Shown one piece after another: positions 13,946 through 24,507 of a stretch of DNA of 64,000 nucleotides. Both the position numbers and the translations under genes were made by a program. How positions within the stretch are numbered: the stretch's first letter is position 1; each line of letters opens with the position of its first letter. The notes under the pieces were generated by a model. That model worked only from the letters and a program-made list of their open reading frames with translations, had not been told where the DNA came from and did no database searches. Origin of the DNA: Candidatus Latescibacterota bacterium (GTDB taxonomy: Bacteria > Krumholzibacteriota > Krumholzibacteriia > WVZY01); contig WVZY01000011.1 in NCBI GenBank assembly GCA_011772205.1, forward strand, positions 1-64,000. Reading direction: 5' to 3'.

Positions 13946-16900
13946 ATGTCTGACGCACGGGAAGAAAAAGACTGGCAGGGGCGTAAGCAGGGTCAAGGAG
14001 GGAGGAAGTCGAGATCTGTTTCCTCACCTGGTGAGGAAATCGGTCAAATGCATTATTCCACGGAAAACTACACCACCGCTTTAGAATACTTCTCCAGAGC
14101 ACTTGGATCTCCAGACATATCATCATATCCCGACCGGTTCCGCATCCTTCTACGGATGAGCGATTGCCACCGTAAGAAGGGTCATTATGTGGAAGCTCGT
14201 CAATACCTCGAAAAAGCCCGATCGCTGCTGGACGATGCTGTCGTCGATGAGGATTGCGGCAAGATCGAGTATAGGGAAGCGTATATTCTGCTCGCGCAGG
14301 GCAACTACGATGATGCGCTCCGCATTGGCTTCAGCGCGTACCGGCGGCTGAAGCATTCGGACGAGCATGGCGAAGTCGCGGACATCCAGCTCCTCCTTGC
14401 CAACTGCTACCACCGCTTGGGCTTGAGCAGCGAGGCGGAGGATTTCTTCATGGATGCTCTGTCCTCCTACAGGCGGATTGAGGACCGGATTGGGATCGCG
14501 TACGTATACAATAACCTCGGACTTTTGCATAAGAACGCCTGTCGGTGGAATCGGGCGATCGCATCGCTTTCGAAATCGCACGAACTGGCCAAGACACTCG
14601 GGCTTACCCAGCACTTGATCCGCGTGCAATTGAACCTCGGCGTTGTGTATTCGAAGCTTCGCCGCTTCCCTGACGCCTTGAGCGCCTTTGTGAATGCCGC
14701 CAACATGGCCGAACGGTTCGGAGATAAGAGCAAGCTCACAAAAGCCATCTTGATGCAGGGTAGAACGTACATCCAATGCAGTGATTACGCTAAAGCCGAG
14801 AAGTGCATCGTTCGCGCCCAGGCTATGGCGAACGATCTCGGTTATGGTCGTGAGTCGGCACTCGCCGATGAGTATCTCGGGGAGCTGATGATGGCGAGGG
14901 GCCTGTATCATGAGGCTCTGGTCAACTTCAACAACGGGCTACGCAAGGCAAGAAAGATTGCCCCGGAGGGAGACGTCACCGCTGAGCTGTTGGCGCGATT
15001 GGCCAGTGCTCACTACCACCTGAACAATCCCAAAAAGGCGCTGCTGCTCATCGACGAGGGTCTCGAGGTTGCCAATAACTGCGGTGAGTTTTACGAGATC
15101 GGATTCTTGTACCGGACCAAGGGGCTCTGCCATGGCAAAATCGGTGATCTCAAGCAAGCCATATCCAATCTTACGACCAGCATCGAGATGTTCGACAAGT
15201 TCGGGAATCCTTACGGCAAGACCCAATCCGAGCAGCTCCTATCGAAATCCTATATCCGCGTTCGTACAGAAGCGGGTCTTTTGAAAGCAAAACAGATCCT
15301 TTCCGATAGCATCGTCGGCTCCAGCAAACTGGACGACAGCCAGGGGCAGATTGTTTCCCAGGTTCTCCTCGCCTGCGTGGAGCAGCGCCTGGGCAATCTC
15401 GATGACGCCCTCCTGGCCATCTACGAAGCCGATCGTCTTGCTGAGGAGGAGCAGAATCCCAAGTTCCGCAGATTTCTGGGGGCCATGCGAGCCCGCGTCG
15501 AGGCCAAGATGGCCAGCGCGACCACACGGGTTATCGACCAGTTCTCCATTTTTGGCGATATCCAGACCGGTGCTCGTTCGAGGGAAAAGCTGGTAGAAGG
15601 CCTCAAATCAACCCTGAAAATCATCCTGGACAAGGTGGAAGCGGACAGCGGATTCATCGCGATCCCCGCTCCATCCGGAGGACGCCTGGAAGTGGCCTGC
15701 ACCGAAAAGATGAGCCAGAAAGATGCCCGGTTGATCCTCGGGTCCAATTCGGTTCCCCGGAGCGCGAATCAGAATCAACGAGGACTCACGATCATGGATT
15801 CGCTGAGGGATCCCGAGCTCCGCAAGCTGAGCGACCGCCTCAGCTTCGATCTGAGCACGCTCGTGTTCCAGAACCTGGGATTTGAAGGCGAATCGCTCGG
15901 CATTCTATGCATCCATCAGGAAAGGCCGTCATCCAGCTCGCCGCTGGAACAGGAAGCCCTGAACTTTGTCGCCGCCTATTCGAGCCTTCTCTCGCTGTCC
16001 GTGTACGAACTCATCCGGAATGAGAAAAGGGACAGGCTCAAACCGAAGCGCCAGGCAAAAGGATTTGAGACCATCGTCACGGAAAATCAAGGGATGCTCA
16101 AACTTCTCAACCTCGCCGAGCGTGTTGCGCACTCCGATGCCACCGTTCTTCTACAAGGCGAAACGGGGACAGGGAAGGGGCTCATTGCTTACGCCGTCCA
16201 TTTGCTCAGCGAACGTAGAAATCGCAAATTTATTCACGTAAACTGTGCAGCCATGCCCGAGGCGCTTCTCGAATCCGAGCTGTTCGGACATGTCAGGGGT
16301 GCGTTTACCGGCGCCATTGCCGAAAAGGAGGGGCTGCTGCGCCAAGCCCACGGTGGGACGATTTTCCTGGACGAAATCGGAAAAACATCGTTGGCGATGC
16401 AAGGCAAGTTACTGCAGTTCCTCGACACGGGCAAAGTGAGGAAAGTCGGTTCGAACGATTTCGTCCCTGTCGATGTCCGGGTTATCTGCGCTTCGAAAAC
16501 GGATCTCATGGCGATGTGCAACGAGGGGCGATTCCTCGAGGACTTCTTTTATCGCATCAATGATTTTCCTCTCACTGTTCCGCCGCTCAGGGACCGGAAA
16601 GAAGATATACCGCTTCTTGTTTGTCACTATTTGAACAAGTTCTCATCTGACATGGGTAAATCGGTGGGTCCGTTTTCCGATGAGGGAATGGAACGCCTCA
16701 TGTCCTACCGCTGGCCCGGCAATGTCCGGGAGTTGGAGAAAGTGGTGAAGCGCGCCATCATTCTCGCCGAGTCGGGCGAGGGGCTTGATCTCCACCATCT
16801 TCCCCCGGAGGTTGCTCGTGAGGGCAACGGCGGAGACCGGCAAGCCGGTCAACGGCTTACCTTGAGGGACCGCATCGAGCAGGTGGAAAAAGAGGCCATC

Positions 16901-17014
16901 CTCACCGCCCTGGAGCGCTGCAATTGGAACAGATCTCAAGCGGCCATCGAACTCGGGATTAGCTATCCCAATCTGCTATCAAAGATTAAGCGCTACGGTT
17001 TCAACGGTTGTTAA
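13946..17014 (+). CDS. TPR-GAF-AAA+-Fis sigma-54 transcription activator
   Basis: 1022 residues. A short basic N-terminus is followed by about ten to twelve degenerate tetratricopeptide repeats (roughly 30-525; for example IAYVYNNLGLLHKNACRWNR and GFLYRTKGLCHGKIGDLKQA). A GAF-like sensor domain (about 550-690) and a complete sigma-54 AAA+ domain come next: Walker A GETGTGKG at 738-745, GAFTGA at 785-790, Walker [27 protein letters not shown]. It ends with a Fis helix-turn-helix (NRSQAAIELGISYPNLL). There is no receiver domain, so control is probably by ligand or protein binding to TPR or GAF rather than phosphorylation. AGGA eight bases before ATG supports the start. Two sigma-54 promoters lie just downstream and are the obvious targets. 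Confidence 0.9.
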   Translation: MSDAREEKDWQGRKQGQGGRKSRSVSSPGEEIGQMHYSTENYTTALEYFSRALGSPDISSYPDRFRILLRMSDCHRKKGHYVEARQYLEKARSLLDDAVVDEDCGKIEYREAYILLAQGNYDDALRIGFSAYRRLKHSDEHGEVADIQLLLANCYHRLGLSSEAEDFFMDALSSYRRIEDRIGIAYVYNNLGLLHKNACRWNRAIASLSKSHELAKTLGLTQHLIRVQLNLGVVYSKLRRFPDALSAFVNAANMAERFGDKSKLTKAILMQGRTYIQCSDYAKAEKCIVRAQAMANDLGYGRESALADEYLGELMMARGLYHEALVNFNNGLRKARKIAPEGDVTAELLARLASAHYHLNNPKKALLLIDEGLEVANNCGEFYEIGFLYRTKGLCHGKIGDLKQAISNLTTSIEMFDKFGNPYGKTQSEQLLSKSYIRVRTEAGLLKAKQILSDSIVGSSKLDDSQGQIVSQVLLACVEQRLGNLDDALLAIYEADRLAEEEQNPKFRRFLGAMRARVEAKMASATTRVIDQFSIFGDIQTGARSREKLVEGLKSTLKIILDKVEADSGFIAIPAPSGGRLEVACTEKMSQKDARLILGSNSVPRSANQNQRGLTIMDSLRDPELRKLSDRLSFDLSTLVFQNLGFEGESLGILCIHQERPSSSSPLEQEALNFVAAYSSLLSLSVYELIRNEKRDRLKPKRQAKGFETIVTENQGMLKLLNLAERVAHSDATVLLQGETGTGKGLIAYAVHLLSERRNRKFIHVNCAAMPEALLESELFGHVRGAFTGAIAEKEGLLRQAHGGTIFLDEIGKTSLAMQGKLLQFLDTGKVRKVGSNDFVPVDVRVICASKTDLMAMCNEGRFLEDFFYRINDFPLTVPPLRDRKEDIPLLVCHYLNKFSSDMGKSVGPFSDEGMERLMSYRWPGNVRELEKVVKRAIILAESGEGLDLHHLPPEVAREGNGGDRQAGQRLTLRDRIEQVEKEAILTALERCNWNRSQAAIELGISYPNLLSKIKRYGFNGC

Positions 17015-17098: not shown

Positions 17099-17217
17099 TT
17101 TTTTTATATCAACGCCTTTCCCGCATTTTTTTTGAAATACGGGTAATTGGACCATACCGTAACATTATTTTTTCAGTGTAGTTACGAAGATTCTTAATTT
17201 TCGACAAGGCCTTATAA

Positions 17218-17232
17218 TGGCATGGCCCTTGC
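17218..17232 (+). promoter_or_regulatory. Sigma-54 promoter 1 (-24/-12)
   Basis: TGGCATGGCCCTTGC has the invariant GG and GC exactly ten bases apart and fits TGGCAC-N5-TTGC closely. Transcription would start near 17244. No convincing reading frame follows before 17.8 kb; a nominal frame that begins at 17217 covers the promoter itself and was rejected. Confidence 0.8.
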
Positions 17233-17243
17233 CTTTTATAAGC

Positions 17244-17480
17244 GCAGGAAGTCATCCCGTGCGTTTAGGAACTTCCGTCTGGTGGGGGAGAGGATTCTTG
17301 GGGAATCGTGAATTCCCCAAGAATCCGAAAAAGCTGGTTTCGGAGCTGAGAAAAGCAAAAAAACGGAATTATCCCGTTCTTGAGTGTGTCCATCGAGTAA
17401 CAGTGCTTTTCTCGATTTCTCGGCCACCCGAGAAAAAGCTGACGCTCAACGTTTCTCTCTAAGCTGAGCTGCTGGCTTTG
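17244..17480 (+). ncRNA. Putative sigma-54-dependent structured RNA
   Basis: The stretch after sigma-54 promoter 1 lacks a plausible gene but is rich in hairpins. GGAAGT pairs with ACTTCC (about 17249-17276). A perfect 15-bp stem runs from 17292-17306 to 17312-17326 with a 5-base loop. AACGG pairs with CCGTT near 17365, and TTTCTCG with CGAGAAA near 17420-17440. The density of stems directly behind a well-formed promoter suggests a small RNA or long structured leader. The 3' end is not clear and I see no family match. The remaining 17481-17800 holds only the second palindrome and a TAACATGTTA dyad at 17725. Confidence 0.45.
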
Positions 17481-17640
17481 CAAGTTAGTTGATTTCGAGA
17501 GGTGGGGTCTCGAACATTGACAAAGAGGGAAACTGGGCGTCAGTTTTTTATGCCTCTTTTCATGCCTCAAAATCCCCTCCAACCATGCCCCAGCACCGAG
17601 CGAATGCCTCCCATTTCATGTCCTTTTTTTAGGACAGTTG

Positions 17641-17801: not shown

Positions 17802-17816
17802 TGGCATGCCGCTTGC
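17802..17816 (+). promoter_or_regulatory. Sigma-54 promoter 2 (-24/-12)
   Basis: TGGCATGCCGCTTGC has GG and GC ten bases apart and differs from promoter 1 only in the spacer. The start point, near 17828, falls just before ATG 17834 of the lipoprotein gene, so the leader would be almost absent. Confidence 0.82.
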
Positions 17817-17833
17817 GCTATAGGACGAACGAG

Positions 17834-18694
17834 ATGCGGAATCTTAGCGGCATAAGAAAGGGGGGTCAAGACTCGAAAGGTCACGCGGCCCTCTATGCAT
17901 TGATCGGAGCATTGCTGCTGCCGGCGCTAATATACACCGGCTGTTGTGACGAATGTGATGACACAGTGGTAATGATCGATAATGGCCCCCCTTCTGCGCC
18001 GCGAGGCCTCTACAGCGTTACGGGCGATGAAGAAGTAACCTTGTACTGGTACGAGAATCCCGAGCCCGACATCGCTGGTTATGACGTTTATTGGAACGAT
18101 GAGGAAACCGGTTATTACGACTACCTCGCCACCACCCCGCCTGATCAAACCTGGTACGTTGACTATACGATCGCCAACGGCGAAACGCGGTACTACGCGT
18201 TGATCGCTTTCGATACTCAAGGATTAGAGAGTGACTGGAGCTACGAGGTGGCGTTCGATACTCCTCGGCCGGAGGGGTTCAATCTCGTGCTCTATGATTA
18301 TTTGGGGCAAAACAGCAGCCTGAGCGGTTACGACTTCTCCTCGTTGTCGGGAACCGCTCAGGCTTGGGACGACCCTGCCACGGATGTTTACTTCGATCCC
18401 TCAAATGGCGTGAACCTCCTCCGCGCGAGGATCGGAGTAGACATCCAGGATTACGGGCTCATCGATCTGATCGATGTGGATTGGGCCCCTAGTGATGGGT
18501 GGTCCCCTACCCAACAAGCCGAGCTTATCTACGGCCACAGCTACATAGTGAGGATAAGCGACAAGGCAGGCGGCCATAACTATGCAAAGATTTTTGTCAG
18601 CTCTGTCTCTCCCAGCTCTGTAACGCTGGATTGGGCTTACCAAACCGTCGTCAACAACCCGGAACTCACCCCTCGTGGAGGTGCATCAAAATGA
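17834..18694 (+). CDS. Lipoprotein with fibronectin-III-like domain
   Basis: About 286 residues from ATG 17834; the ATG at 17801 lies within the sigma-54 promoter and cannot be used from it. A basic N-terminus and hydrophobic segment (ALIGALLLPALIYTGC) end in a lipobox-like IYTGC. One FN3-like domain follows (about residues 50-145; PSAPRGLYSVTGDEEVTLYW, PDIAGYDVYW, YYALIAFDTQGLES), then a unique region rich in aromatic and acidic residues (about 155-285). FN3 domains mediate binding on extracellular proteins. The stop overlaps the next start (ATGA), so the two proteins are made together, presumably under the TPR activator. No function is assigned. Confidence 0.78.
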   Translation: MRNLSGIRKGGQDSKGHAALYALIGALLLPALIYTGCCDECDDTVVMIDNGPPSAPRGLYSVTGDEEVTLYWYENPEPDIAGYDVYWNDEETGYYDYLATTPPDQTWYVDYTIANGETRYYALIAFDTQGLESDWSYEVAFDTPRPEGFNLVLYDYLGQNSSLSGYDFSSLSGTAQAWDDPATDVYFDPSNGVNLLRARIGVDIQDYGLIDLIDVDWAPSDGWSPTQQAELIYGHSYIVRISDKAGGHNYAKIFVSSVSPSSVTLDWAYQTVVNNPELTPRGGASK

Positions 18695-19908
18695 AAAGCA
18701 CTGACATGGTATCCATGAGAAAGTCCGCTCTGGTGGTGGGACTTGCCTTAGTGGTTCTGGCCTTTGTGGGCGGACTTACCGCTTTGAATGCGGGTATCGC
18801 CTACCGGAACACCGCGGATATCCGGGTCTGGTTGGAGGAAGACTACGACGTTTACCAAGACATGGACGATGTCGTCTTTCACATCAGGGCGGCGCGTGGT
18901 TGCTACGCGCTGGTGTATGTGGTCGACACGGACGGATTCGTCCACGTCATCTACCCGTTCTCTCCCCACGAAAACGCCTGGATCGAGGGTGGTGTCACTT
19001 ATCGATTCTCGGCGTTCGATGTCGGGATGTACGGATTTGATTTCAACAGGGGAATTGCTTTCGTCTACGCAATCGGCAGCCCTTACCCGTTCAACTACTC
19101 GTGCTATGGCGCAAACATTTTCGCCGGTCGTTTCGCGTACCGCATTTACGGAGATCCTTTTGTGGCTTGCAGGCTCTTTTATATCTCCTTGCTTCCGGTA
19201 TGGTGCGATCGCGCGGTGATCGGTATCAGCTTCACGCACTTCTATATAAGAGAATGGGTGCGGTATCCTAGCTACCTTTGCTTCTGTAATGGAGCATCTT
19301 ACCGGATCCGTGGAGGTTACTGCAGCCATTGCGCACCGGTCTACGAAAGATACCGGAGCCACCAGAGAGACCCCTATCGAGTGCTGAGTCCGAAGGTCCG
19401 GTACAGGGGCGACGCATCGGCACACGCAAGGATCGCCCCCGTGCCGGAGAAGCGGAGGGAAGCCATACGCGCAAAGCTAAGCCGGTTCAGAACGGCCACG
19501 CCTTCCAATGAAAAGGAACGGGTGCTGCGCGAGAAGACTATCGGCACGAAAAAGATAATTAGGGAAAAGAGTAGAGCCGTTGAGAAAAACAAGGGGCAGC
19601 GCTCCATCAAAATGAAGCCGGCGACTAAAAAGTCGTCAACGAGCAGCCGCCTTGTCGCTCCAAAGAAGGCTGTGAGGAACAAGGACGTGCGAAGAAATGC
19701 TCAGAAAAGTAGCGTCGTACGCTCGAGCAGCGAGATCGTCAAGAAAGAGAGGAGCAGGACCGTTGCCCTTAAGCAGAAGGCTCAGATCAAGACATCGACT
19801 CCGCCACGCGCGAAGACGGTGAGTGCAGGGAAGACATCCAAAGCAAAGGCATCCGTTGCGAAAGCAAAACGGTCCGTCGGGACAAAGGCTTCGAAGAAAG
19901 CGCGCTAA
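18691..19908 (+). CDS. DUF4384-like exported protein with lysine-rich tail
   Basis: 405 residues from ATG 18691, with GGAGGT eight bases upstream. A signal or anchor segment (about 12-33) precedes a DUF4384-like domain (about 40-125; VWLEEDYDVYQDMDDVVFHI, then YALVYVVDTDGFVHVIYPF and a WIEGGVTYRF strand). A cysteine- and aromatic-rich middle (about 130-220) follows. The last 170 residues are highly basic and low in complexity, packed with Lys, Arg, Ser, Thr and Ala. DUF4384 domains occur in exported or surface proteins; the role is unknown. The tail could bind an acidic polymer such as nucleic acid or envelope polysaccharide. The gene starts within the lipoprotein stop (ATGA). Confidence 0.75.
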   Translation: MKSTDMVSMRKSALVVGLALVVLAFVGGLTALNAGIAYRNTADIRVWLEEDYDVYQDMDDVVFHIRAARGCYALVYVVDTDGFVHVIYPFSPHENAWIEGGVTYRFSAFDVGMYGFDFNRGIAFVYAIGSPYPFNYSCYGANIFAGRFAYRIYGDPFVACRLFYISLLPVWCDRAVIGISFTHFYIREWVRYPSYLCFCNGASYRIRGGYCSHCAPVYERYRSHQRDPYRVLSPKVRYRGDASAHARIAPVPEKRREAIRAKLSRFRTATPSNEKERVLREKTIGTKKIIREKSRAVEKNKGQRSIKMKPATKKSSTSSRLVAPKKAVRNKDVRRNAQKSSVVRSSSEIVKKERSRTVALKQKAQIKTSTPPRAKTVSAGKTSKAKASVAKAKRSVGTKASKKAR

Positions 19909-20151: not shown

Positions 20152-23100
20152 GTGAGCGCAAGGGTCTCCTTTTTCTCATTTTTCGCGTCAACCTGCCTTT
20201 TACTGCTCTTCTTAGCCTCTGAAATTCATGCCACAGGCTATAGCCCATCGTACGCTCCCGATAAGCGTTTTTTGGCCGGCCCCAAGTGGCACCAGGCGCC
20301 GGTCAAGCTCAATCGCTTTCAAAGAGAACGCGTCCGGAGTTTGCTCGCTGGCCGCGAAATTGCGCATGCTCAGGCGGCTATGGATACCCTGCGCCTCGTT
20401 GCCATCCAGGTTCAATTCGCCGACAGCCTCATGGGCGGTCAGCCGGGAAGCCGGAGGCCGCAGCTTCGGGATTCGCTGTTCTTTGCAAATGAACTCGAGC
20501 ATCTGACCGACTACTACCGCGGTGCTTCCAGGAACTATCTGACGGTGGCCTGGGAGGTCACCTCACGGCTTTATACGCTTCCCAAAGCCATGGGGTACTA
20601 CGGGAAGGACGGTGAAGAGGAAACGCGGGTAGTGGAAATGGTGCAAACAGTGATCGATTCCGCGGATGACGATGTGGACTTTTCGTTGTTCGATGCGGTG
20701 GTTGTCATCCACGCCGGCGCGGGCCAGGAGACCGATTTGGCGGATGATTCCAGGGAGCAAATCTGGTCGAGCTTCTACGATCTGGACGATATCGATCATG
20801 CATTCCCCGACAGCACTGTCTCGGGTCTGGCGACGAACGACTCGCTCGGCGGTATGCCGTTTTTTGTCGATAACTTCCTCGCGCTTCCCGCCAATGCAAG
20901 CCAAGACGGAGTCATTATCGCGACGTTGGGCATATGGGCATTCGAAACGGGAAGTCGCCTCGGGCTCCTCCCGTTGTTCGACAGCACGCCGGCAGGTTTC
21001 CCGGATTCGCGCGGTGTGGGGAGCTTCTGCCTGATGTCCTACGGGCTGTTCAACACGGCGAGTTTCATACCTGGATTCCCCTGCGCGTTCAACCGGATTC
21101 TGGGCGGCTGGCTGGATCCAGTGTTCGTCGAGAGCGGCGGCCATTTTCGGCTTCGCGATATCAATTCTCCGGCGAACGGAGATACGGCTTGCTTGAAGAT
21201 TCCGGTCACCGAGAGCGAGTACTTTCTCGTCGTCAACCGGGTGCACGACACGAACTTCGACAGTCTGTTCACCTTTGGTGATTTGGACAGCAATCTGGTT
21301 CCCGACAACCCCGATTCGCTTCTGGGAGCGGAATTCGACTTTTTCCTCACCGATGTTACCAATCCCCAGGTCATCAAGCGGGATCCAGATTTTAAGAACA
21401 TGTTCAGGAGATACGTCTCCACCGGCTCGGGCATCTATGTCTGGCACATCGACGAAATGGTCATTCGTGAGGCATTGGAGACCGGATTTCTCCCGAACGA
21501 CTTTGTATCGAGAAAAAGTGTTGATCTCGAAGAGGCCGACGGCGTGCAGGATCTCGACGGGGTGGCAGATCAATCGTTCAGTTTCGGCAGCCACTGGGAC
21601 AGCTTCCGAGCGGGACATATCGACCACTTCAGTCCGGATACCGATCCCGCCTCGAATGCGCACTCGGGTGCGAGGACGGGGATTCGCGTGAGCGGGATAA
21701 CCTCTCCAGCTCCTTATATGGAGTGCGATGTGTCGTTTTCGCTTCCTTACAGCGAAAGGCGAATTCGGTGGGAAGCGACTGCGCCCGGTCAGCCACCGAC
21801 TCCGGTGAACCTCGATGGCGGTGATTCGACGGAGGTCGTCATTCTTGCGGATACCGGCCTGGTATATGTGTTCAAAGCGGACGGTAGCGAGTATGTCGAT
21901 CAGGATGCGGACCCGCAAACCATCGAGCCGTTTCTCACGGTTCCTGGAGCTGTTTGGACGGGGCCTCCGGCGTTTGGGGATATCGACGGCGATTTGGACT
22001 TGGAAATCGTCGCCTCCAGTAAAGACGGGCGGCTGTTCGCCTGGCATGACGACGGCTCGGAAGTGTTCGACGGGGACGGTAATCCATCGACCGAAGGGGT
22101 CCTGTATGCTGGATCGACAATGGTCGCACCACCGCTGCTCTACGATATTATTAGCGGAACAGCCAACCGGATCGCGATCATTGAAAGAGAAGGTGACTCG
22201 CTTGCCGTGAGCTTCATCGATGACACCGGCAACAAGGTCTTCCCATTCATTTGGCCGGGAAGCGAGCCGGCTAAATTCCAGGCTCAGTTCGCCTCAGCTC
22301 CGGCGGTTGCAAACATAGGAGTGCCCAATCTCGTCCATGCTAATCTCGCCGTCGCATGGGCGGATACCGTGGACGGCGTTTACGGCATTTCGTTCCTGCC
22401 TCTCGAGCTTCAGCCGGCGGAATCTTCTGTGGGAGAGCATTCGGTGTTCGGGTCTGCATTCGAGCTCCTGCCGGCGGTGACGTTTCCGCTTCCGGAAGGG
22501 ATCGATGTCGAAGAAATGATTTTTTCGCCGGTGGCGGCAGGTGATCTTGATGCGGACACCTTCGACGAGGTGGTCCTTGCACTCCCCAATGGCGAATTGG
22601 TGACTTATTCATATGGCGCCTTCGCCAGGGGGAGAGAACCCCTCTCCATAGCGGCGCTCCGCGGAAACAATCCATCCGCCCCGGCGCTTGGCGATGTGGA
22701 CAACGACGGAACATTGGAGATAGCGCTTTGGGACGATGACTTTTTTTATCTCTTCAAGCACAACGGCGCATTGTACACCAACTGGCCGAAGCCGGCCCTG
22801 TCCGTGGAATTCCTCGATCTCCCCCCGCTCTCTTTCGACAACCTTCACAAAAGCCCGCTGATCGGGGACATCAACGGAGACGGTGCGGTGGAGATCCTGT
22901 TCCCGACGTCGCAAGGGGCCGTCCGCGCGTTTCACAACGATGGGAGTACGGTTGCCGGCTTCCCGCGGCCGGCACCGGCGTTACTCGATGCCACGCCGTC
23001 CCTCTCCGACATCGATGGGGATGGCGAGGTCTCCCTGCTTGCCGTTGGAACCCTGGCGGCGCTCGAGGGCAGGGACGGCGTCCGCGACACACTCATTACC

Positions 23101-23532
23101 AGCAATGTAGCAATCCTGTCCGTTCAGTCGTTTCCCGGCTCTCAGGCGACGGATGATCAGTTCTGGGCGATGTACCAGAACAGTGTCGACAGGCGGGGGC
23201 GGACCCGCGCTTTGGAACCGCTGCAACAGAGCCCGGCACTCGTGGAAGCGGGATCCTTTATGATTTATCCCAATCCGGTAACGGGTGCCGAAGTGCGGGT
23301 GCGTGTAACGCTGAACCAGAGCGCTACCGTGGGTGTGGAGATCTATAATCTAGAAGGGGAGAGAGCTTTTTCTCACGAATTTGCTGCGAATCCGAGTGGT
23401 GTGATCCAAACACCATTCGATGAAGCTTTGGATGTGAGCAGCCTGAAGAGCGGTATATATTTTCTACGCCTGTCCGTCAGCGGCTCGAGCGAGTCCACGG
23501 CGGAAGTGAAACCATTTGCTATAAAGAGATGA
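20152..23532 (+). CDS. M6-like secreted protein with lost zinc site, FG-GAP repeats and sorting domain
   Basis: 1126 residues from GTG 20152. Signal peptide (about 1-26). Residues 60-480 follow the M6/immune-inhibitor-A layout, including LVAIQVQFADS, FFANELEHLTDYYRGASRNYL and the segment where HExGHxLGLPDLYD is expected. Here that segment reads FETGSRLGLLPLFD, so both zinc-binding His residues are replaced (Phe, Ser) while the rest survives. FG-GAP/VCBS-type repeats follow (about 600-970: GDIDGDLDLEIV, GDVDNDGTLEIA, GDINGDGAVEIL, SDIDGDGEVSLL). A C-terminal sorting domain begins YPNPV and ends SGIYFLRLSV. It is probably a surface binding protein derived from a peptidase. A PorV-like gene follows directly. 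Confidence 0.8.
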   Translation: MSARVSFFSFFASTCLLLLFLASEIHATGYSPSYAPDKRFLAGPKWHQAPVKLNRFQRERVRSLLAGREIAHAQAAMDTLRLVAIQVQFADSLMGGQPGSRRPQLRDSLFFANELEHLTDYYRGASRNYLTVAWEVTSRLYTLPKAMGYYGKDGEEETRVVEMVQTVIDSADDDVDFSLFDAVVVIHAGAGQETDLADDSREQIWSSFYDLDDIDHAFPDSTVSGLATNDSLGGMPFFVDNFLALPANASQDGVIIATLGIWAFETGSRLGLLPLFDSTPAGFPDSRGVGSFCLMSYGLFNTASFIPGFPCAFNRILGGWLDPVFVESGGHFRLRDINSPANGDTACLKIPVTESEYFLVVNRVHDTNFDSLFTFGDLDSNLVPDNPDSLLGAEFDFFLTDVTNPQVIKRDPDFKNMFRRYVSTGSGIYVWHIDEMVIREALETGFLPNDFVSRKSVDLEEADGVQDLDGVADQSFSFGSHWDSFRAGHIDHFSPDTDPASNAHSGARTGIRVSGITSPAPYMECDVSFSLPYSERRIRWEATAPGQPPTPVNLDGGDSTEVVILADTGLVYVFKADGSEYVDQDADPQTIEPFLTVPGAVWTGPPAFGDIDGDLDLEIVASSKDGRLFAWHDDGSEVFDGDGNPSTEGVLYAGSTMVAPPLLYDIISGTANRIAIIEREGDSLAVSFIDDTGNKVFPFIWPGSEPAKFQAQFASAPAVANIGVPNLVHANLAVAWADTVDGVYGISFLPLELQPAESSVGEHSVFGSAFELLPAVTFPLPEGIDVEEMIFSPVAAGDLDADTFDEVVLALPNGELVTYSYGAFARGREPLSIAALRGNNPSAPALGDVDNDGTLEIALWDDDFFYLFKHNGALYTNWPKPALSVEFLDLPPLSFDNLHKSPLIGDINGDGAVEILFPTSQGAVRAFHNDGSTVAGFPRPAPALLDATPSLSDIDGDGEVSLLAVGTLAALEGRDGVRDTLITSNVAILSVQSFPGSQATDDQFWAMYQNSVDRRGRTRALEPLQQSPALVEAGSFMIYPNPVTGAEVRVRVTLNQSATVGVEIYNLEGERAFSHEFAANPSGVIQTPFDEALDVSSLKSGIYFLRLSVSGSSESTAEVKPFAIKR

Positions 23533-23589
23533 TTCGGCTATTCAATTAGTATAGTGATAAATAGTAGAATAGTAATGAGGAGAGGCGAC

Positions 23590-24507
23590 ATGCGAAGAAC
23601 CATAGCACTGCTGATCATTACACCAGCTCTGGCGTTTTCTTACAACCAGGCAATAGCCGGTGATCCCGGTGATGCCGGCGCCTTGTTCTTGCGCATCGGG
23701 CTGGGAGCAAGAGCGTCCGGCATGGGGGAGGCTTTTGTTGGTGTGGCCGAGGATGCCTCTTCGGTTTACTGGAACCCGGGAGCGATGGCTGCCGTGCTGG
23801 GGACGAACGCGCTCGCGATGCACAACGAGTATCTACACTCCCTGAGGCTGGAACAACTCGCACTCACACACGAAACCGACTACGGGACGATTGGTCTAGG
23901 TTTCACGGGTCTTTACATGGATGAGTTGGAAAGGCGCGGTGACTCTCCGACTTCCGTTCCGCTCGGCACTTTTTCCGCTTATGACGTCGCCGTAACCGTC
24001 GGATTCTCGCGTTACATCTTCCCCAATCTTTCAGCGGGAATAGCAGTCAAGCCCGTTTATCAGAAAATCGACGAAGAGTCCGCCATTGGCGTCGCCTTCG
24101 ACGTTGGGGTGTATCACATTGCCAGGATGCCCGGAGTGAAATTCGCCGCGGTCATCACAAATGTCGGAAAACCCATGAAGTTCGTTTCCGAAGAATACGC
24201 CCTTCCGCGCGAGATCAAAATTGGGGGCAGCTATGAGAGGCGGGTTCCAGCCGCAAGAGGTAAAGTGCTCTTTACATTGGATGTTCTATTTCCCAACGAC
24301 GGGGATATCAAGGAACACGCGGGTTTCGAGTATGGGTATACGGGAAGGCTGTTCCTTCGTGCAGGCTATAAAGCGGGTTATGATTCGTTCGGGGCAACGT
24401 TCGGCTTGGGCGTGAAATATAAGAAGCTTATCTTTGACTACGCATTTCTGCTCGTCGATAACGATCTGGGGGATAGCCACCGCCTGGGCGTGGGGTTTAC
24501 TCTTTGA
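23590..24507 (+). CDS. PorV/PorQ-like outer-membrane beta-barrel protein
   Basis: About 305 residues from ATG 23590, which has GAGGAG seven bases upstream. A signal peptide (ALLIITPALAFSYNQAIAG) precedes the diagnostic N-terminal block LFLRIGLGARASGMGEAFVG followed by EDASSVYWNPG. Amphipathic strands of a FadL-like barrel then run to the end, closing with a typical aliphatic/aromatic end (LGVGFTL). In type IX systems PorV receives cargo bearing the C-terminal sorting domain, so its place 57 bases after a cargo-type gene is telling. The last 11 bases overlap the facing lpxH-like gene. Confidence 0.82.
   Translation: MRRTIALLIITPALAFSYNQAIAGDPGDAGALFLRIGLGARASGMGEAFVGVAEDASSVYWNPGAMAAVLGTNALAMHNEYLHSLRLEQLALTHETDYGTIGLGFTGLYMDELERRGDSPTSVPLGTFSAYDVAVTVGFSRYIFPNLSAGIAVKPVYQKIDEESAIGVAFDVGVYHIARMPGVKFAAVITNVGKPMKFVSEEYALPREIKIGGSYERRVPAARGKVLFTLDVLFPNDGDIKEHAGFEYGYTGRLFLRAGYKAGYDSFGATFGLGVKYKKLIFDYAFLLVDNDLGDSHRLGVGFTL

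Follow-up and report, generated by a model that had tools for sequence, protein, structure and literature searches.

A predicted sigma-54-controlled structured RNA family conserved across the uncultured phylum Ca. Krumholzibacteriota

Introduction

GlmY of enterics is a structured small RNA that can be controlled by sigma-54. Hfq is the usual helper of the small RNAs that act by pairing, and CsrA is the classic client of sponge RNAs. Comparative genomics has also brought to light large orphan structured RNAs such as GOLLD, ROOL, OLE, and raiA. In Vibrio fischeri, the sigma-54-driven Qrr1 RNA is under LuxO and SypG (PMC10162802).

Here, we analyse an intergenic region within the window, i.e., the whole 64,000-nucleotide stretch of DNA under study. 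Comparing the sequences of homologous loci, we conclude that this region most probably encodes a member of a real, undescribed family of sigma-54-controlled structured RNAs. Searching the literature, we found no paper joining "Krumholzibacteri-" with "non-coding RNA".

Results

A conserved -24/-12 promoter lies ahead of the predicted RNA

The earlier note had placed a -24/-12 sigma-54 site at the head of this region.

17218..17232, + strand: sigma-54 -24/-12 promoter assigned to the RNA

This assignment is well supported. At 17218-17232 (+), TGGCATGGCCCTTGC agrees exactly with the consensus, TGGCAYG-N4-TTGC. The motif by itself is weak evidence because the genome contains 15 exact matches against 6 with the reversed control. 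The position of the promoter is fixed in all five homologous loci, and 14-18 bp separate it from the first helix in each aligned relative. Across the phylum, a -24/-12-like site occurs 113-183 nt upstream of the GGTGGGGTC loop in 39 of 41 loci (0.5 expected). The fixed position in five loci and the 39 phylum sites together make the promoter call convincing. All 19 genomes searched, including G000, encode RpoN (PF04552). We consider it very likely, from these comparisons, that the RNA is sigma-54-driven.

The region is predicted to fold into a stable multi-domain structure

17243..17550, + strand: predicted RNA, ~307 nt
17247..17276, + strand: 5′ hairpin GGAAGT...ACTTCC with the nearly invariant loop (C/T)ATCCCGTGCGT in the alignment
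17279..17289, + strand: invariant single-stranded CTGGTGGGGGA (alignment A5)
17292..17326, + strand: perfect 15-bp hairpin, arms 17292-17306 and 17312-17326
17433..17549, + strand: terminal helix closing the 3′ domain, arms 17433-17448 and 17534-17549; terminator with the T-run
17463..17481, + strand: small hairpin GC..AGCTGCTGGCT..GC of the 3′ domain, from the consensus fold
17488..17521, + strand: hairpin with the invariant apical loop GGTGGGG, the phylum-wide signature; GGTGGGGTC at 17501-17509

We set the 5′ end of the predicted RNA ~11-12 nt past the -12 element and its 3′ end at the T-run. Folding a 318-nt stretch, we obtained -126.7 kcal/mol, compared to -96.7 ± 5.3 kcal/mol for the shuffled sequences (z = -5.6); none of the 100 shuffles was equally stable. 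The same block is conserved in G002, G003, G004, and G006. The perfect 15-bp hairpin of the earlier note was recovered with 15/15 pairs and a 5-nt loop. Its broader proposal of a non-coding, hairpin-rich RNA is borne out for the fold and has to be corrected for the end at 17480, which would split the 3′ domain in half; this domain and the terminator reach ~17550. The window contains a second GGTGGGGTC (24706), which we attribute to chance as it lies inside an LpxH-like gene on the opposite strand.

Base-pairing is conserved in close relatives

Performing a DNA search of 38 genomes, we found the homologous stretch in five others, four from the same family and one from the same order. The promoter, both hairpin domains, and the terminator are conserved in these relatives with compensatory base changes, and one of the loci is cut by Ns. 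In the 3′ domain of the window's order, 93.7% of the cells pair and 11 of the 45 pairs show two-sided changes, a count reached by none of 500 shuffles; the slid-structure controls drop to 32-44% paired. The terminal helix (helix 1 of alignment A4) shows two-sided changes in 11 of its 26 pairs. This helix is variable and the apical GGTGGGG loop is unchanging across the window's order. The 15-bp hairpin has 92.8% of cells paired and three two-sided pairs, which is modest alone with five sequences. The 5′ hairpin is paired in all five sequences and, being invariant, is without covariation.

The earlier note had staked its proposal on structural conservation in relatives, and such conservation is evident: the two-sided counts exceed all 500 shuffles and all slid controls in four independent alignments (11/45 in the window's order, and 31/64, 13/31, and 11/29). 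A real, conserved, structured RNA is almost certainly encoded here, judging by the fold and its covariation.

One relative showed an irregularity of its own. In the single-contig genome G005 (L012:2775-2860), the RNA gene enters an N block and continues as unrelated coding sequence. This assembly is probably mis-joined, since the RNA gene runs into Ns and the lipoprotein gene is at ~2.2 Mb, ~0.1 Mb off.

The earlier note had also seen no plausible gene in this region, and we agree. An 81-aa ORF begins at 17217, and indels interrupt the reading frames differently from one relative to another, leaving no conserved frame. One could argue for a small protein or a dual-function RNA from this 81-aa frame and from a frame with a GTG start, opening VRKELP, that recurs in three relatives. 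However, the first of these begins inside the promoter; the second shifts where there are indels, has unrelated 29-45 aa ends, and is missing in G006. The sequence variation tracks base pairs rather than codons. With the frames broken and non-conserved, we rejected the small protein and regard a coding function as very improbable.

The predicted RNA lies between an activator gene and a surface-protein operon

13946..17014, + strand: activator gene with TPR, AAA (sigma-54 interaction), and Fis-type HTH domains and no receiver domain (PF00158, E 2.5e-62; TPR_12, AAA_lid_14, and HTH_8; Pfam)
17619..17636, no strand assigned: palindrome TGTCCTTTTTTTAGGACA, TGTCC-N8-(G/A)GACA, candidate activator-binding site (UAS)
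17802..17816, + strand: second -24/-12 promoter, assigned to the downstream gene; exact consensus, conserved in relatives
17834..18694, + strand: FN3-like lipoprotein gene (ORF) with phylum-wide orthologues
18631..19908, + strand: ORF for a DUF4384-like secreted protein, start uncertain (TTG 18631 or ATG 18691)

The activator gene is the conserved upstream neighbour across the phylum; NCBIfam yields no specific name for it above the cut-off. Judging by its position, the adjacent TPR-AAA-HTH protein likely drives both sigma-54 promoters. The second of these lies ~250 bp past the RNA terminator; a -24/-12-like site in this position, ahead of the lipoprotein gene, is also seen in the f1/f2 and f4 examples and in several f6 loci. 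In the window, the lipoprotein ATG (17834) falls ~7 nt after the predicted start (17827). The same spacing of ~7-12 nt is seen in f1 and several f4 loci, giving scant room for a ribosome-binding site; a normal GGAGGTG leader is present in the f6 homologues. The DUF4384-like ORF matches PF14326 slightly below the cut-off, and its best full-length orthologues are in f1/f2. Downstream of the operon (20152-24507), the window encodes an M6-like protein that carries a type IX secretion sorting tail, and a PorV-family gene comes next; the two make up a type IX secretion-like pair.

The palindrome falls in the interval from the RNA terminator to the lipoprotein promoter, i.e., downstream of the RNA promoter, and recurs at the matching place in G002, G003, and G004 as well as in several f4 loci. 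It might act on both promoters; the protein that would bind it is conjectural. The presence of this conserved palindrome in the same gap might be taken to mean that the conserved sequence works as DNA, through protein sites or a cruciform, rather than as RNA. But the palindrome is outside the RNA, and the two-sided changes, the conservation of loops on one strand only, the promoter before, and the T-run after all fit an RNA; we give the DNA reading hardly any weight.

Synteny reveals diverged versions of the RNA across the phylum

The gene order of activator, gap, FN3-like lipoprotein, and DUF4384-like gene is common across Ca. Krumholzibacteriota. We took 58 loci around the syntenic genes and scored those 51 gaps in which the end of the activator gene was recognised. 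The GGTGGGGTC sequence was present in 41 of these (0.3 expected from shuffles) and GGCGAG(A/C) in 48; the signature loop was missing from two f3 loci and from the single scored f5 locus. The gap sequences are otherwise too diverged across the phylum for a DNA search, and synteny rather than sequence search revealed the diverged RNA versions. Models R1 and R2 of the window-order RNA gave nothing trustworthy outside the order in 80 genomes. Scanning 84,980 genomes with the loop pattern, we obtained five true matches and five chance matches; the latter were in other phyla and were not confirmed by the models. The named matches were Ca. Krumholzibacteriia bacteria and two chromosomes labelled Latescibacterota; from these, we place the window in Ca. 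Krumholzibacteriota. Viral contigs gave no match for the RNA. Taken from these sequence comparisons, the same gap very probably carries a diverged, recognisable RNA almost throughout Ca. Krumholzibacteriota.

We distinguish three architectures. In the window's order (f1/f2), a single predicted RNA carries the 5′ domain and the GGTGGGG domain. In f6, one longer transcript is predicted. Its 5′ hairpin surrounds TTACAGGGA, the GAGGTGGGGTC hairpin is enclosed by a long helix (TTCGTGTTTTCGGGAG/CTCCCGAAACACGAA), and the loop GGCGAGA caps a 3′ hairpin that sits within the terminator; 94.8% of the cells pair in this alignment and 31 of the 64 pairs covary. In f4/f8, a short sigma-54 RNA stops after the GGTGGGG domain (95.8% paired, 11 of 29 pairs covarying), and a separate second RNA with the loops ATGGCGAGA and ATGGACATCCCCTCCGGTG follows behind a TTGA-type promoter (96.4% paired, 13 of 31 covarying).

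The second RNA (e.g., L126:1572-1674) is ~100 nt long; it has a sigma-70-like promoter, and its ATGGACATCCCCTCCGGTG loop is almost unchanging. It was found in the f4/f8 gaps L125-L137, L141, L143, L144, and L181. Most f4/f8 genomes have one copy, located in the gap wherever the gap was fetched. Its model did not find it in the window's order, where we had considered it as a missing partner located elsewhere in the window's family. Rfam gave no match for it in those loci that were scanned.

The arrangement of these loci bears on whether the RNA is free or instead serves the lipoprotein operon downstream as a leader, i.e., as an attenuator or riboswitch. It lies directly upstream of the lipoprotein gene in the same orientation, synteny with that gene is strict, and the terminal helix with its T-run is terminator-shaped. 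Yet a separate, conserved sigma-54 promoter precedes the downstream gene, the conserved domain is closed by the terminal helix with no conserved antiterminator helix to compete with it, and in f4/f8 the second RNA intervenes between the first RNA and the lipoprotein gene. As the RNA has its own predicted terminator and the downstream gene its own predicted promoter, we judge a leader role to be unlikely.

The invariant loops may act in trans

We favour a stand-alone structured non-coding RNA, predicted to be ~265-310 nt in the window's order and up to ~400 nt elsewhere. Sigma-54 RNA polymerase would transcribe it once an enhancer-binding protein, most likely the adjacent TPR-AAA-HTH activator, is active, and transcription would end at the RNA's own intrinsic terminator ahead of the next sigma-54 promoter. 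The RNA and the surface-protein genes downstream of it would belong to one switch. Its stems would present invariant single-stranded loops, namely GGUGGGGUC in nearly all families and AUCCCGUGCGU and CUGGUGGGGGA in the window's order; the model leaves GGUGGGG and AUCCCGUGCG exposed. When the switch is on, these loops may bind an RNA or protein partner, so that the RNA would act in trans. We consider a trans-acting regulatory RNA probable. Conservation, covariation, position, promoters, and the absence from Rfam are what the comparisons show; that the RNA is transcribed, which activator drives it, and that it acts in trans are inferred.

Since the loops presumed to act are invariant, their partners cannot be read from covariation. 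Two candidates were set aside. A direct duplex between GGUGGGG of the first RNA and CCCCUCC of the second did not outperform shuffled sequences, 206 of 1000 of which did equally well. The loop also pairs with the assumed anti-Shine-Dalgarno sequence at -11 to -13.5 kcal/mol; we do not claim Shine-Dalgarno mimicry because the conserved bases (GGGGUC) differ from those that the anti-Shine-Dalgarno sequence would select.

The RNA could also be a scaffold or sponge for a protein, 6S- or CsrB-like in kind, whose repeated G-rich loops would titrate the protein with no need for mRNA pairing. The multi-domain fold, in which invariant loops hold their place across very diverged stems, is in keeping with this, as are the failure to find a C-rich partner in f6 and the failure to find Hfq (PF17209) in any of the 19 genomes searched (controls positive). 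Against it, a search of the window's order yielded no CsrA (0/7 genomes) though other families have it; CsrA cannot for this reason be the general partner, and the sponge has no candidate protein. We hold the sponge to be possible but doubtful. Among the 19 genomes, CsrA occurs in f3, f5, f6, f7, and one of two f4 genomes and was not found in f1, f2, and f8. Since the window's order yielded neither Hfq nor CsrA, the trans-acting RNA that we favour matches neither an Hfq-dependent mechanism of the Qrr type nor a sponge for CsrA.

Discussion

We tentatively propose, at somewhat less than even confidence, a large RNA class, previously undescribed and phylum-wide, that would be permanently tied to a single sigma-54 activator and its surface-protein operon. 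Some families would carry both signature loops, GGUGGGGUC and GGCGAG, on the same transcript; in others, the loops would be divided between one RNA driven by sigma-54 and a partner RNA driven from a sigma-70-like promoter, making a two-RNA switch that works without Hfq and, in the window's order, without CsrA. The structured RNA family described here is new and is conserved throughout a phylum that has not been cultured. The loss or splitting of modules between families, leaving one or two RNAs, offers a natural series for studying how such RNAs evolve and act in bacteria where Hfq was not found. The inducible promoter, the candidate activator, and the defined neighbouring operon make the expression and targets of the RNA directly testable.

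Sigma-54-driven RNAs are known as a kind; the sequence, fold, setting, and taxonomic range of the present family are new. Searching Rfam 15 at the window site (E ≤ 10), we obtained only chance microRNA models, none at the gathering score. At the gathering score, the window and 20 homologous loci gave no family at the RNA site, and at E ≤ 1 the 20 loci gave one sub-threshold ctRNA match and nothing else. The Qrr, GlmY/GlmZ, and CsrB-type models had no match at the RNA site.

Like Qrr of Vibrio, the RNA described here combines a sigma-54 promoter, an NtrC-type activator, and a multi-hairpin non-coding RNA with a terminator; in kind, it would likewise be a regulatory RNA switched by sigma-54. Unlike Qrr, it is about three times longer and has no homologous sequence and no Rfam match, Hfq was not found in the 19 genomes searched, and its activator has TPRs and lacks a receiver domain. 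It resembles GlmY/GlmZ as a structured small RNA for which sigma-54 control is possible, but differs in neighbours, size, and fold, again with no Rfam match. With CsrB/RsmZ it shares many stems, exposed purine-rich loops, and a dedicated activator that would switch its transcription; its loops are, however, GGUGGGG and GGCGAG rather than ANGGA repeats, and the window's order is where CsrA was not found. Like GOLLD, ROOL, OLE, and raiA, the RNA is conserved, large, non-coding, taxon-restricted, and unclear in function. It has no Rfam match and, in contrast to these RNAs, its predicted sigma-54 promoter and fixed activator gene provide a regulatory handle.
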